Assembly: GCA_013112575.1 (NCBI GenBank)
Contig: JABFGG010000005.1
Coordinates: 85,497 to 149,496 of the forward strand
Source of the DNA: Chloroflexota bacterium
Lineage (GTDB): Bacteria; Chloroflexota; Anaerolineae; Anaerolineales; UBA11579
Direction: 5' to 3'
DNA length: 64,000 bases
Below, piece by piece: positions 5,183 through 24,057 of this stretch. How positions within the stretch are numbered: position 1 is the first letter of the stretch; the number at the start of each line of letters is the position of its first letter. Both the position numbers and the translations under genes were made by a program. The notes under the pieces are model-generated. The model made no database searches. It saw nothing but the letters and a program-made list of their open reading frames with translations, and was not told the origin of the DNA.

Positions 5183-5196
5183 CGATTGCGCAATCG
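5183..5196. promoter_or_regulatory. LacI-type palindromic operator
   Basis: CGATTGCGCAATCG is a perfect 14-base palindrome with a central CG step, the usual form of LacI/GalR operators. It begins 7 bases after the -10 box and covers the expected transcription start, so a bound repressor would block the promoter. Autoregulation by the adjacent LacI-type protein is inferred. Confidence 0.7.
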
Positions 5197-5231
5197 TTTT
5201 CTTAGAAATAAGAGAAGATATATCACACTAT

Positions 5232-6221
5232 ATGACAAAAATGCGAGATGTGGCCAAGCATGCAGGGGTGTCAGTCAGCACGGTTTCGCATGTCATTAAC
5301 GAGACCCGCCACGTAAGCACAGACACACGCCAGCGTGTGTTGGGCGCCATGGATGCCCTAAATTACCAACCCAACCGCCTAGCACGTAGTCTGCGGGTGA
5401 AGAAAACCCAGACAATTGGAATGATCGTGCCGGATAGTTCCAATCCATTCTTTTCCGAGATCGCCCGTCATATCGAAGATTATTGTTTTGAACAGGGATA
5501 TAGCGTAATCCTGTGCAACTCGGACGGTGATCTGGATAAGGAACTCTTCTACGCCAACGTTTTGGTTGAAAAGCAGGTAGACGGTATCTTATTCGTGGCG
5601 GTGGGACTCAGCGAAGACAATATCCTCAAATTGAATGCTCAACGCATCCCCATTATGCTGGTTGACCGCCAGATTCCTAATCTTCCCCTGGACAGTGTAC
5701 TGGCAGATAACCGTCGCGGAGGGTGGCTGGCAACCCAACACTTGATCGAACACGGGCACAAGCGTATCGGCTGTATCACCGGTTTTTCAGATCTAACCCC
5801 CAGTTCCGAGCGCGTCATCGGCTACCACCAGGCTTTGGAAGAACATAATCTCGGCATTGATGAAACGCTGATCTTGCAAGGGGATTTTCATCTTCAGAGC
5901 GGTTATGACCGCGCCAATCAATTACTGGATATGAATCAGCCCCCCACCGCTATCTTCTGTGGCAATGACCTGATGGCAATTGGTGCCATGCGAGCTGCGG
6001 GGGGAAGAGGATTGCGGATCCCTGATGACATCGCTATTGTTGGTTTTGATGATATCCCCATTGCCCAGTTCACAAACCCACCCTTGACCTCTATTACACA
6101 GCCATTAAAAAAATTAGGTCGGTTATCAAGCCAGCTATTGATCGAACGCATTCAAAAAAAAGACTTAGACGTTGCCCAACATATGCTTGAAGTTGACCTG
6201 GCTATACGACAATCCAGTTAG
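5232..6221 (+). CDS. LacI/GalR family transcriptional regulator
   Basis: The 329-residue protein has the N-terminal LacI helix-turn-helix (MRDVAKHAGVSVSTVSHVIN) and the hinge region (NYQPNRLARSLR). A periplasmic-binding-protein-like effector domain follows from about residue 60 (TIGMIVPDSSNPFFSEI, then the FCGNDLMAIGAMRA and DDIAIVGFDDIP elements). Length and order are typical. Family members bind sugars or nucleosides and repress transport genes. Its own promoter carries a perfect palindrome at 5183-5196. It lies directly before the nucleoside ABC transporter, with 125 bases between, which suggests that it controls that operon. The ligand (ribose, a nucleoside or a base) is inferred. Confidence 0.92.
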   Translation: MTKMRDVAKHAGVSVSTVSHVINETRHVSTDTRQRVLGAMDALNYQPNRLARSLRVKKTQTIGMIVPDSSNPFFSEIARHIEDYCFEQGYSVILCNSDGDLDKELFYANVLVEKQVDGILFVAVGLSEDNILKLNAQRIPIMLVDRQIPNLPLDSVLADNRRGGWLATQHLIEHGHKRIGCITGFSDLTPSSERVIGYHQALEEHNLGIDETLILQGDFHLQSGYDRANQLLDMNQPPTAIFCGNDLMAIGAMRAAGGRGLRIPDDIAIVGFDDIPIAQFTNPPLTSITQPLKKLGRLSSQLLIERIQKKDLDVAQHMLEVDLAIRQSS

Positions 6222-20042: not shown

Positions 20043-20447
20043 TTATTGGCGCAACATTGGGCGGAATTTGTAGCCATAGACCAGCATGCCACGATCTTCT
20101 ACTGTAGAGCGCAGTTTACGCGTGACCATCTCAACAGGCATACCGATTTCAACATCATCCAAATCTACATCAGTGAGTTGGGCTGTAATGAGGCTGCCAT
20201 CATCAAGCCTGACCATGGCAACGGGATAAGGAGCGAATTCCTGGTAGCCTTCGGGGGCTTCAAAGACGGTTGCAAACGAATAAATTTCACCGGTAATCGT
20301 CTCAGGTTGAGCGACCTGTTCTTCAAGATGGGGTTTGTGCCCGTTGCTGCTGGGGCCAACCACAGCAAGAACAGCCTCTGCCTGGTTTTCTGTTTGCAAG
20401 GCGTAGCGATGTTTCTTCAGTCTCCAATGTCGTGCAATGTCCATCAT
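20043..20447 (-). CDS. DUF35 (OB-fold) protein without zinc-ribbon cysteines
   Basis: The 134-residue protein starts ARHWRLKKHRYALQ, the conserved N-terminal helix of DUF35 proteins, and ends with an OB fold (AMVRLDDGSLITAQLTDVD, IGMPVEMVTRKLR). In archaea DUF35 bridges acetoacetyl-CoA thiolase and HMG-CoA synthase. The segment after RYALQ, where family members carry the CxxC...CxxC zinc ribbon, here contains no Cys at all and reads TENQAEAVLAVVGPSSNG. It is the last gene of the operon, 68 bases after the thiolase homologue. A scaffold role is retained by inference; metal binding is lost. Confidence 0.8.
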   Translation of the reverse strand: MMDIARHWRLKKHRYALQTENQAEAVLAVVGPSSNGHKPHLEEQVAQPETITGEIYSFATVFEAPEGYQEFAPYPVAMVRLDDGSLITAQLTDVDLDDVEIGMPVEMVTRKLRSTVEDRGMLVYGYKFRPMLRQ

Positions 20448-20515
20448 TTTCTCCTACTAGTCACAATAATCAGCGTATCTTACCTAGTCAAAACTATCAA
20501 AAACTCTCAAAAGGC

Positions 20516-21685
20516 TTAAGCATCCGAAGGATAACTTTGCAGCACATGAGTGATGGCTGTGGAACCCGGTCCACCCAGGGATTGAATTAGGGCAGTTTTT
20601 GCGCCGGGAACCTGATTGTCACCGGCTTTGTGGCGCAATTGAAGGGTAGCTTCAATCGCCTGGTACACACCGGTAGCCCCTCCGGGGTTGCCACGCGCTT
20701 TGAGACCGCCAAATGTGGTTACCGGCAATTCCCCATCAATGCCAATGCCACCATTTTGAGCCAGCTGCCAGCCCTGGCCTGCTTCGGCCAACCCGGCTGC
20801 TTCCAACGAAAGGGCGCTGTAGATCGAATAGGCGTCAAACAATTCAAACAAGTCAGCATCTTTAGGCTGGATATCAGCCTGTGCACAGGCACGTTCTACT
20901 GAGAGTCGCGCGGCCTCCAGGTTCAGGGGATTCTCACGATTGTGCAGGGCCAGTTTATCCGTCACCACGCTGGAACCACCGATATAGACCGGAGAGTGTT
21001 CAAAATCATCCGGCAGCAGATCGGGACGGGTCAATAATAAAGCCGCGGCGCCGTCTGCAGGCGGGGCCACGTCAAACATATTGAGCGGTTCTGCCACCAT
21101 ACCGGCCCTGGCATAAGTTTCGGGCTTGATGGCACGCTGGAACATGGCATTGGGGTTGCCTGCCCCATTCGCATGGGCATTGACCGCAAAACCTGCAAAG
21201 CCGTCCTGGGGCACATCATACTCGTGCAAATAGCGGCGCATCAGCATAGCAGCCTGGGCAGTCATAGTCAGTCCATGCACTGCTTCAAAATCGGCATCCA
21301 GGTTGGTGGCGAAAGCCGCTTCGGTTTCACCCGGCAACTGGTCGCTGAGCTTCTCAACGCCCAGTACCAGGGCAGCTTCAATGGCCCCGGAGGCCACAGC
21401 CAGGTAAGCAACACGCAAAGCCATAGCGCCAGAGGCGCCCCCCGCTTCGACAGTAGTGGCTTCTACATTCTCCAATCCGGCATAGTCGGCGATCAAGCTG
21501 CCCAACTGGGACTGACGCGACAGTGTGGCAGCCAGCATATTGCCTACGTAAAGGGCCTCCGGTTGGATACCAGGGGCATCTTTGAGTACGGCTTCAATGG
21601 CAGTCCCGGCCAATTCACGGATAGACATTTCCCAATGCTCCCCCACTCTCGTTTGGCCGATACCGGCAATTACAACTTCATGCAT
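20516..21685 (-). CDS. Thiolase-family protein lacking the catalytic residues
   Basis: The 389-residue protein aligns over its full length with archaeal-type acetoacetyl-CoA thiolases of the thiolase/HMGS/DUF35 complex. It carries MHEVVIAGIGQTRVGEHWE, SLIADYAG, LAVASG and DGAAALLLTRPD. The nucleophilic Cys of the VEAACASG motif is Gly83 (VEAGGASGA). The His of the VHDCF motif is Phe283 (ELFDAYSI). The His of GHPxGATG is Asn333 (GNPGGATG). Each change was re-read from the DNA. The enzyme is therefore probably unable to condense acetyl-CoA and may serve as structural partner of HMG-CoA synthase. AAGGAG precedes its ATG, 12 bases after the HMGS stop. Confidence 0.85.
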   Translation of the reverse strand: MHEVVIAGIGQTRVGEHWEMSIRELAGTAIEAVLKDAPGIQPEALYVGNMLAATLSRQSQLGSLIADYAGLENVEATTVEAGGASGAMALRVAYLAVASGAIEAALVLGVEKLSDQLPGETEAAFATNLDADFEAVHGLTMTAQAAMLMRRYLHEYDVPQDGFAGFAVNAHANGAGNPNAMFQRAIKPETYARAGMVAEPLNMFDVAPPADGAAALLLTRPDLLPDDFEHSPVYIGGSSVVTDKLALHNRENPLNLEAARLSVERACAQADIQPKDADLFELFDAYSIYSALSLEAAGLAEAGQGWQLAQNGGIGIDGELPVTTFGGLKARGNPGGATGVYQAIEATLQLRHKAGDNQVPGAKTALIQSLGGPGSTAITHVLQSYPSDA

Positions 21686-21697
21686 CGGTTCAGCTCC

Positions 21698-22765
21698 TTA
21701 TTTCATCACCAGTTTGCCGCGATAACGGGCATAGGTGGCATAGTCGATTTCAGTACGGCGCGATACATAATCTTGTGTTTTGGGCGCTTTGTCACGCCGC
21801 GTGAGGATGTTCTCGGTAACTCGCAAAGCCATGGCATCGGAACCAGCACCGGAACCGAAAGACACCAGCAAAATGCGATCGCCGGGTTCAGCCTCATCCA
21901 GGATGGCACTCAGGCCGATGATGGCTGCCCCAGAGTATGTGTTGCCGATCTCGGGCACCAGCAAACCGGTCTTAACCTGCTCCGGCTGGAAACCCAATTT
22001 GGCGGCGGCGCGCTGTGGGAATTTTGTATTGGGTTGGTGCACCACGACGAATTTGTAGTCTTCCGGGGTGGTGTTGGTGGCTTCCATCAAGGCGCTTCCG
22101 GCCTGGTGAATGTGCTTGAAGTAAGCCGGTTCACCCGTAAAACGGTTGCCGTGTTCGGGGTACTTTTGATAAGCACGCCGCCAGAAGTCGGGCGTATCCG
22201 TTACGAATGAGTAGGAAGCCTCTATCACGGCCATAGCTTCTTCAGCAGGGCCGATGATGTAAGCCGCCCCACCCGCACCTGCCGTATATTCCAGGGCATC
22301 ACCTGGGCGGCCCTGAGCGGTATCCATACCAATCGCCAGGGCATAATCTGCCATACCCGACCCCACCAGCCCCATGGCTGCCACGATGGCTTCCGTACCG
22401 GCCTTACAAGCAAATTCCCAATCGGCCGCCTGGGTGTTAGGCACGGCACCAATCGCTTCCGCCACGATGGTTGAAGTGGGTTTGACGGCATATGGGTGCG
22501 ATTCCGAACCGACCCAAACAGCACGGATGTCCGTCGGTGCAATACCTGCACGCGATAGAGCATTGCGGGCGGCTTCCACCGACATGGTAGCTACATCTTC
22601 GTCAGGCCCCGGCACGGATTTTTCTTTGATGGGCAAACCTGCATTACCACCGGTCCACACCCGCGATACCTCGCTGGCAGGCAAACGGAAACGCGGCACG
22701 TAAGCCCCGTAGCCCACGATCCCAACAGCTCGTTCGGGGATCAACAGATCATTTTGATCAACCAT
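21698..22765 (-). CDS. Hydroxymethylglutaryl-CoA synthase, archaeal type
   Basis: The enzyme condenses acetyl-CoA with acetoacetyl-CoA to HMG-CoA. The start is placed at ATG 22765, which overlaps the preceding stop as TAATG and has GGAG 6 nt upstream; the ATG at 22777 lacks a usable site. The 355-residue product begins the domain with [16 protein letters not shown]. It has Glu88 in [12 protein letters not shown], the nucleophile Cys120 in [11 protein letters not shown], and the His of [14 protein letters not shown]. All catalytic residues are present, in contrast to the thiolase homologue downstream. It is the second gene of the mevalonate operon and probably sits in a complex with the two following products. 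Confidence 0.93.
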
Positions 22766-24057
22766 TATTGGCTCCATTCCTTCATCAATTCTTCGGCGCG
22801 GTCGATGCGCACAGTTTTTTCATTTACAAGTTGGCTAGCCAGTTTATCCACTTGCTCCCCTTCAGCCCCGGCTGCAATCGCCACCTGACGGGCGTGCAAG
22901 CCCATGTGGCCGCGTTGGATGCCTTCCGTAGCCAGAGCGCGGATAGCAGCCAGGTTCTGGGCAAGCCCCACGGAGACAATGATCTCGGCCAGTTCGGCCA
23001 CGGTGGTGACCTGCATGAGCTTTAGTGCGGCGCGCGCCGTGGGATGTACTTTGGTGGCCCCACCCACAATGCCGACAGCCATAGGCATTTCAAGAGTGCC
23101 AACAAGATTGCCTTCAACATCAGTGCCCCATGTGCTGAGAGAGGTGTACTTACCATCGCGGGCAGCATAGGCATGCGCTCCGGCTTCGATGGCACGCCAG
23201 TCATTGCCTGTGGCCAACACCACTGCGTCCACACCGTTCATGATGCCTTTATTGTGTGTGGCCGCCCGGTAGGGATCGGCAGCAGCAAAGGCCCAGGCTT
23301 CGATAATGCCATCACGCACTTCTTCAGCCGTGTAGTCACCAAAGGCCAAGTCTTCTAACGGTACAGTACAACGCACACGTGCCAGACGGCGGTCGGCCAG
23401 ATTGGAAAGAATGCGTAAGTGCACGCGCCCACCGGTGATGGCTTCCACCTGGGGGGCCAGGCGTTCACAGGCCGTATTGACGGCATTGGCACCCATGGCA
23501 TCACGCACGTCGTAGATCAGGTGCAGCACCAGGAATGCGCCGATAGGCGAATCTTCAATGATGCGCACTTCCAGGTCGCGCGGCCCGCCACCCAGCTTTT
23601 TGAGGATGGGGTCGATCTCGCCAGCTTCGGCCAGCAATTCAGTCTTCTTTTCCAGGATGGCCAGGCGCGCAGTTGCAGGATCATTCACGTCCAGCAACTG
23701 CATTTGCCCGATCATCTCCGGTTGGCTGGTATGGGCGGTAAAACCGCCGCCAGCCCGGACCAGTTTAGCCATAAATGAGGCCCCAGCAACGACAGAAGGT
23801 TCTTCTACCGCCATGGGCACGAGTACGTCGCTCCCGTTGACCAGGAAGTTAAGGCCAATCCCAAGCGGTAAATTATGGGTACCGACCACATTTTCGATCA
23901 TGTGGTCAGCTTGTTCTACATCCAGGCCACCATCACCTGCCAGCGCGCTGAACTCTTCCGGGCTGAGGAGCTTGCCGGGATCCAGTTGGGCGCGGCGTTC
24001 TGCAAAACTAAGCTTGTAGAAACCGGGGCGACGGGAGTTGTATTCAGTATTTGACAT
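22765..24057 (-). CDS. mvaA: Hydroxymethylglutaryl-CoA reductase, class II
   Basis: The 430-residue enzyme reduces HMG-CoA to mevalonate. Class II features are visible: [21 protein letters not shown], the catalytic Glu in [19 protein letters not shown] (about 85), [14 protein letters not shown], the Lys in [30 protein letters not shown] followed by the catalytic Asp, and the late His in [16 protein letters not shown]. Class II enzymes are the bacterial form, used either for synthesis or for mevalonate degradation. Cotranscription with HMG-CoA synthase argues for synthesis of isoprenoids. It is the first gene of the operon, and the following gene overlaps it by one base. Confidence 0.94.

Follow-up and report, generated by a model that had tools for sequence, protein, structure and literature searches.

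Why would a mevalonate operon hold on to a thiolase that has lost the very residues with which thiolases work? The question arises from a 64,000-nucleotide stretch of DNA from a Chloroflexota bacterium (hereafter the window), whose minus strand encodes, in this order, 3-hydroxy-3-methylglutaryl-coenzyme A (HMG-CoA) reductase (HMGR), an archaeal-type HMG-CoA synthase (HMGS), a thiolase-like protein and a DUF35 protein. As in the archaeal thiolase–HMGS–DUF35 complex (6ESQ), homologues of all three partners thus occur together, the HMGS matching at 452 bits. Unlike in that complex, the thiolase lacks its Cys and both His, the DUF35 protein lacks its zinc ribbon, and acetoacetyl-CoA would have to arrive from outside. 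The answer to which the sequence comparisons point is that a thiolase–HMGS–DUF35 complex likely retains this conserved thiolase-fold protein as a subunit without catalytic function. No earlier description of an inactive thiolase in a mevalonate operon was found in the literature collection searched.

Residues, fold and conservation of the thiolase-like protein

The thiolase-fold protein is 389 residues long (20516..21685, minus strand). A phmmer alignment to 7yvy and 6esq places the nucleophilic Cys of thiolases opposite Gly83 (codon 21437..21439), the His of the HDAF/HDCF motif of intact relatives opposite Phe283 (20837..20839), and the His of their GHPxGA motif opposite Asn333 (20687..20689), so that the three replacements named in the first-pass annotation are right in both residue and numbering. 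None of the residues that mark an archaeal-type acetoacetyl-CoA thiolase as an enzyme (the Cys, the HDxF His and the GHP His) is present. Copies without the Cys are called dead in what follows, and those with it intact. The closest solved relative, the Pyrococcus furiosus thiolase PFC_04095 (7YVY; 44% identity), keeps the Cys and both His, unlike the window protein.

The fold itself is predicted to persist despite these losses. Pfam families PF00108 (75.8 bits) and PF22691 (139.9 bits) match above their gathering cut-offs, identifying a thiolase fold. Each of the 21 NCBIfam families matched scores under its cut-off (e.g., NF053570, 313 vs. 600 bits; NF004720, 377 vs. 420 bits). An AlphaFold2 (AF2) model, with a predicted local distance difference test score (pLDDT) of 88.7 and a predicted template modelling score (pTM) of 0.91, has as its nearest structures 7yvy and the complex thiolases 6et9 and 6esq, with a TM-score of 0.92 to the latter two. 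A patch of low confidence at about residues 111–140 probably falls in the region that, as described for relatives of the fold in PMC12329534, roofs the active site. Intact copies have Asn at position 369 (window 20579-20581). The window has Ser there, and most dead Chloroflexota copies have Ser, Cys or Ala, without conservation; where it is Cys, the loop becomes CLGG, like the CxG loop of canonical thiolases.

Close relatives share the altered site. A protein search scored 8000 candidates, of which 7995 passed, and among the best 120 of these 7995 matches position 83 is Gly without exception, position 283 is Phe in 80, Tyr in 32 and His in 8, and position 333 is Asn in 80, Phe in 37, Tyr in 2 and His in 1. 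Because Gly83 is conserved throughout the relatives listed, chance or a sequencing error is very unlikely. The database names of these relatives read Anaerolineales, Anaerolineae, Chloroflexi or Chloroflexota, and on these names the window genome was taken to be an Anaerolineae-like member of the Chloroflexota. The closest relatives are dead, and intact Cys and His residues, which would have spoken for sequence error or decay, appear in more distant ones only.

Purifying selection on the dead thiolase gene is strong, though less so than on HMGS. Median ratios of nonsynonymous to synonymous substitution (dN/dS; Nei–Gojobori, own script) were taken in three groups of genomes. Among 10 genomes of one genus (45 pairs; synonymous divergence, dS, 0.05–1.5) the median is 0.085 for the dead thiolase and 0.059 for HMGS; in a second group of five genomes the values are 0.069 and 0.023; and in a third, of four genomes at dS >1.5 and thus near saturation, 0.055 and 0.030. 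The three catalytic columns, invariant or nearly so by column entropy in intact copies (the intact Chloroflexota group here comprising 24 rows, unlinked intact copies included), rank 124, 305 and 250 of 389 in dead Chloroflexota and 274, 84 and 302 in dead Thermoplasmatota. Residues conserved in all four groups include G326, G327, K329, G332, G336, A337, D205, D211, E281, D284, R250, H171 and N177, among others.

Dead thiolases beside HMGS in two phyla

How far does this state extend? The survey covers part of two phyla, Chloroflexota and the archaeal Thermoplasmatota: 61 genomes comprising that of the window and its relatives (59 with a thiolase homologue), 151 spread over the Chloroflexota (51 with a homologue at E 1e-40), and 116 from Thermoplasmatota, entered via two Thermoplasmata loci (101 with a homologue at E 1e-30). 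Thiolase alignments longer than 250 residues were drawn from the fetched loci, 227 minus 7 duplicates leaving 220 copies, and a copy was taken as HMGS-linked when the fetched DNA placed an archaeal-type HMGS (at least 45% identity) no more than 4 kb away. The alignment of homologues beside HMGS, which the first-pass annotation had proposed as a check, finds 125 of the 164 such copies without the Cys (72 in Chloroflexota, 53 in Thermoplasmatota) and 39 with it (7 and 32, respectively), the residue at that position being Gly in 82, Cys in 39, Asp in 20, Ser and Thr in 8 each, Glu in 4 and Gln in 3. The annotation had treated a single genome; the dead state it reported there is real, and, spanning two phyla, is not peculiar to that genome.

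Among the 56 copies that do not stand beside HMGS on fetched DNA, 41 keep the Cys, 13 have Thr, Ser, Met or Pro in its place with both His kept, and the remaining two are dead with Gly: L109 (G121), whose HMGS is 2.4 kb away, and L273 (G217), where the contig ends. Counting these two with the 125 gives 127 dead operon copies, of which 27 retain both His and 55 neither. The first His is present in all 39 Cys-bearing operon copies, the second in 38 of them. Since 27 of the 127 dead copies still carry both His, and only one of the 39 Cys-bearing copies lacks one, the Cys appears to have been lost before the His. In the phylum-wide Chloroflexota sample, 33 of 151 genomes carry an archaeal-type HMGS at E 1e-60, and all 33 have the thiolase, dead in 30 and intact in three (G094, G145, G192). 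A further 18 sample genomes have a thiolase homologue and no HMGS of this type; one copy was read in 17 of them (G172 being the other), and all 17 keep the Cys. In this sample, Cys loss thus goes with being the partner of HMGS.

The Cys was probably lost several times separately, to judge from the trees. In a quick tree of 68 representatives, built with the trait columns left out, a branch with a Shimodaira–Hasegawa-like approximate likelihood-ratio test (SH-aLRT) value of 90, not starred, sets the 19 dead Chloroflexota copies apart, and a second group (SH-aLRT 93) holds the intact operon copies of Chloroflexota together with one unlinked copy; the forks between these two groups are poorly supported. 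The 20 dead Thermoplasmatota copies, all of them across a fully supported branch from the dead Chloroflexota, need five label changes, at least three of which are forced by starred branches. A FastTree tree of all operon rows requires at least five changes between Cys and no Cys. Such counts fit loss or regain alike, and amount to at least four separate losses if the Cys was never regained.

Several unusual copies emerged along the way. Relatives of the window also carry unlinked SCP2-type thiolases of a second family (L042, L043, L045-L050, L052, L054, L070), in which Thr, Ser or Met stands in for the Cys and both His persist; together with the Cys-bearing L044 they make up their own supported group in the tree. 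In 16 dead copies, 15 from Thermoplasmatota (L223, L231, L243, L245, L246 and others) and one from Chloroflexota (L075), Asp occupies the Cys position while both His remain, a combination that might support other chemistry. In G027 (L055), genes for HMGS, a dead thiolase, DUF35 and an intact thiolase follow one another in a single operon, an array that may be what remains of an ancestral duplication, or else a dead/live pair.

HMGS, DUF35 and the source of acetoacetyl-CoA

If the thiolase is dead, are its partners alive? The window HMGS (21698..22777, minus strand) scores 537 bits against TIGR00748, well above the cut-off of 353, and retains Glu92, Cys124 and His247, bearing out the earlier statement that its catalytic residues are complete. 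The same holds for the HMGS neighbours throughout the survey, beside dead and live thiolases alike: among sequences covering the respective site, Glu and Cys are each present in all 158, and His in all 162. One genome has, apart from the operon, a second and more distant archaeal-type HMGS homologue (G129:C5:162533-163576; E 3.9e-74).

The DUF35 protein (20043..20447, minus strand) has changed as well. It contains no Cys at all, so the four-Cys zinc ribbon that relatives carry at about residues 18–50 (20298..20396) is gone, and it matches only the family of the oligonucleotide/oligosaccharide-binding (OB) fold, PF01796 (67 bits). It aligns to 6esq_E over residues 5–131 (E 3.6e-15), which by sequence comprises the N-terminal helix and the OB fold; its AF2 model is poor (pLDDT 58.7) and does not show the helix. 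The N-terminal motif (MDIxRHWRLKKxRY in the window; RHWR...RY across its lineage) and the OB fold are retained. Ribbon loss is common to the nearest DUF35 relatives, P0121-P0126 (92–54% identity; P0124 is shorter), and the other DUF35 relatives read in the order keep all four Cys. Among 165 operon loci, the fetched DNA included a DUF35 gene in 148, which were read, and none in the other 17. A CxxC...CxxC ribbon is missing from 18, every one beside a dead thiolase: that of the window, 15 from Chloroflexota in four families outside its class (f31, f41, f67, f70) and two from Thermoplasmatota. It is missing beside none of the 39 Cys-bearing thiolases (G027 being counted here) and is kept in 91 of 109 dead operons (Fisher 0.004, on rows related by descent). 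The loss of the zinc Cys asserted in the first-pass annotation therefore stands for the window, and is confined to certain lineages, in each of which the thiolase is dead. In nine of nine searched genomes without an adjacent DUF35 gene, one is encoded elsewhere, at 66–77% identity to that of a relative and in some cases about 10 kb from the operon. In a related complex, PMC12329534 describes the N-terminal and OB parts of DUF35 as forming the main interface and the zinc ribbon as shaping the substrate cleft of the thiolase-fold partner. Loss of the ribbon after loss of the active site, with the interface kept, fits this cleft-shaping role.

Where, then, would acetoacetyl-CoA come from? The C-terminal domain of canonical thiolases, PF02803, was sought in the same genomes, a best hit below 1e-25 being called canonical and anything else weak-only; weak-only hits, where placed, are mostly the SCP2-type thiolase itself, and G252 (2e-19, in another gene) was also counted weak-only. 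Among 79 Chloroflexota genomes in which the HMGS-linked thiolase was read, those with a dead operon copy have 72 canonical and no weak-only best hits, and those with an intact copy one and five; G027, with dead and live copies, has a canonical one. Among 85 Thermoplasmatota genomes the figures are 51 and 2 (G215, G263) with a dead copy and 11 and 21 with an intact copy. Conversely, in 26 of the 28 weak-only genomes the operon thiolase is intact. Dead state and canonical thiolase are associated at Fisher p 3e-7 in Chloroflexota and 5e-10 in Thermoplasmatota, again on rows related by descent. The window genome (5.13 Mb in 44 contigs, the operon on contig C5) has three thiolases with the CxS, NEA(F/Y), GHP and CxG motifs, named as in PMC3406046, all in place. 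One of them, on contig C20, adjoins a gene judged by eye to encode a 3-hydroxyacyl-CoA dehydrogenase; the neighbour would suit acetoacetyl-CoA metabolism, making this thiolase the best local candidate supplier. The suggestion that acetoacetyl-CoA must come from another thiolase thus gains support from the canonical-motif enzymes elsewhere in the window genome.

The remaining operon member, HMGR (22765..24057, minus strand), is the first gene and matches TIGR00532 above its cut-off; the HMGS gene overlaps it by 13 bases. Its catalytic Glu, Lys, Asp and His we take to be present, judging by eye against the usual motifs. The order of the operon genes is conserved among relatives, and no fusion of HMGS, thiolase and DUF35, which would have spoken for contact between them, was seen in the operon loci examined. 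In G033, short pieces resembling the HMGR end and the thiolase start lie between operon genes (L095:2074-2235 and 5193-5270), as if left over from partial duplications. DXR, of the methylerythritol phosphate (MEP) route, was absent (PF02670) from 58 of 61 genomes, that of the window included, and weakly matched (3e-5 to 5e-5) in three, DXR type II not being sought.

A probable non-catalytic subunit and its rivals

How might a thiolase without chemistry serve its complex? In 6ESQ, CoA sits at the subunit interface, bound by residues of all three proteins, as described in PMC6392133, and PMC12329534 speaks of a CoA site shared by thiolase and HMGS. By analogy with 6ESQ, part of the CoA-docking site would still be contributed by the dead subunit and DUF35, allowing HMGS to receive acetoacetyl-CoA from a separate canonical thiolase. 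If the docking site is partly built from thiolase and DUF35, HMGS could not well do without them, even with thiolase chemistry gone. Once another thiolase supplied acetoacetyl-CoA, selection on the chemistry of the operon thiolase would be relaxed or even reversed; losses would begin with the Cys, proceed to the His and, in some lineages, end with the DUF35 zinc ribbon, leaving in place whatever holds the complex together. The thiolase equilibrium favours thiolysis, and from its direction we infer that loss of the Cys may itself have been useful. We tentatively propose, as a possibility held at somewhat less than even chance, that a producer complex has in this way turned receiver, on several separate occasions and in both bacteria and archaea: the thiolase would be off and yet kept as half of the CoA-docking port of HMGS, removal of the Cys would stop back-cleavage of docked acetoacetyl-CoA and so make intake one-way, and the DUF35 ribbon would then be free to go.

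Known systems offer partial precedents. PhlABC (PpATase, a Friedel-Crafts acylase) shares the three-part architecture and, according to PMC6392133, has one partner that lacks catalytic residues, is thought to be needed for assembly, and belongs to an operon needed as a whole for activity. It is the mirror image of the window system, in that Cys and Glu are gone from the HMGS-like PhlA, and it is the thiolase-like PhlC that remains active; CoA-binding residues are described there as lacking. MsTLP1 of Mycobacterium smegmatis likewise has a thiolase fold with Gly102 in place of the Cys, and in the account of PMC3406046 thiolase activity was not found; unlike the window protein, it is a monomer with an extra C-terminal domain. 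It is not among the solved structures matched by the window sequence.

Several observations weigh against retention of a non-catalytic subunit fed by a canonical thiolase. The dead thiolase has a higher dN/dS than HMGS in each of the three groups, and mean column entropy is 1.39 in dead copies vs. 0.99 in intact ones, partly from larger sampling. The link of the dead subunit to the complex is known here from gene linkage and conservation only. Chloroflexota have Gly at position 83 with fair uniformity (86% weighted), a pattern that differs from plain drift and could point to some specific function. The association with canonical thiolases shrinks once descent is considered: the tree holds only four to five independent pairs, of which on average 2.1 point the same way, 0.0 the opposite way and 1.9 are undecided (sign test, median p 0.5). 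Canonical thiolases, moreover, have many other roles. Exceptions run in both directions: G215 and G263 are dead with no strong canonical hit, and G217, dead and weak-only, would be a third had its contig not been too short to show HMGS and thus to enter the table; 11 Thermoplasmatota genomes and G145 combine an intact operon copy with a canonical thiolase, and G027 carries dead and live copies in tandem. As most of the genomes are fragmented, assembly incompleteness may explain why a canonical thiolase is missing from some of them.

The uniformity of Gly83 would also suit a change of the protein into an enzyme of another kind, for instance an aldolase like Sal or Ltp2, steroid aldolases that also pair a thiolase fold with DUF35. 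PMC12329534 reports CtSal to be active with Gly at the Cys position, and Sal and Ltp2 to partner with hydratases, not HMGS. None of the 127 dead proteins, however, carries the Sal motif YDC or the motif YDHF, and just 11 have Tyr283, the window reading FDAY, and on the absence of YDC(Y/F) or YDHF a Sal/Ltp2-type aldolase was rejected. No new catalytic pair has been fixed in place of the two His, since position 283 varies among His, Phe, Tyr, Ser, Asn, Thr, Asp and Cys, and position 333 among Asn, His, Phe, Asp, Tyr, Gln, Arg and Glu. Nor does the mevalonate operon, as the pathway is known, miss an aldol step. Altered chemistry is accordingly quite unlikely. The protein could instead have remained a thiolase whose nucleophile moved, for example to Cys369, matching the canonical CxG loop, as 25 of 73 dead Chloroflexota copies have Cys there. 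This is very improbable: the window has Ser at position 369, the best 120 of 7995 matches have Ser there in 70 cases, Cys in 31 and Ala in 19, and across the dead Chloroflexota set Cys reaches at most 38% in any column. Cys206, found in 49 of 54 dead Thermoplasmatota copies, is also in 30 of 32 intact ones and so replaces nothing, and the window has Val there. With no replacement Cys, a migrated nucleophile was rejected.

Could the dead subunit instead be one half of a heteromeric thiolase, paired with an intact SCP2-type paralogue much as chain-length factor pairs with ketosynthase? The G027 array, and the intact archaeal-type copy elsewhere in many members of the order, would suit such an arrangement. 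It is nonetheless unlikely: the window genome has no second copy of this thiolase subfamily at E 0.001, and of the nine second copies examined within its family (f1), eight are without the Cys as well, that of G003 alone keeping it. Simple decay or an assembly error, for which one might cite the in-frame TAG in the thiolase match of relative G036, is scarcely credible given the low dN/dS, the conserved gene order and the likeness of all of the best 120 of 7995 matches; it was rejected on the conservation of Gly83, purifying selection and kept gene order. The first-pass annotation had proposed a "structural or regulatory pseudoenzyme": a retained non-catalytic subunit agrees with the conservation, the purifying selection, the intact HMGS and the presence of canonical thiolases, and nothing specific was seen for a regulatory role.

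A retained non-catalytic subunit would have practical consequences. One annotation source names many of the dead proteins acetyl-CoA C-acetyltransferase, while in 30 of the 33 sampled Chloroflexota genomes with an archaeal-type HMGS the first step of the mevalonate pathway would depend on a different gene, a point that bears on metabolic models and on moving such operons into production hosts. Such retention would also constitute a natural experiment testing the shared-CoA-site model of channelling. If the reading is true, the thiolase subunit has a non-catalytic task in this complex strong enough to preserve it after its chemistry is gone.

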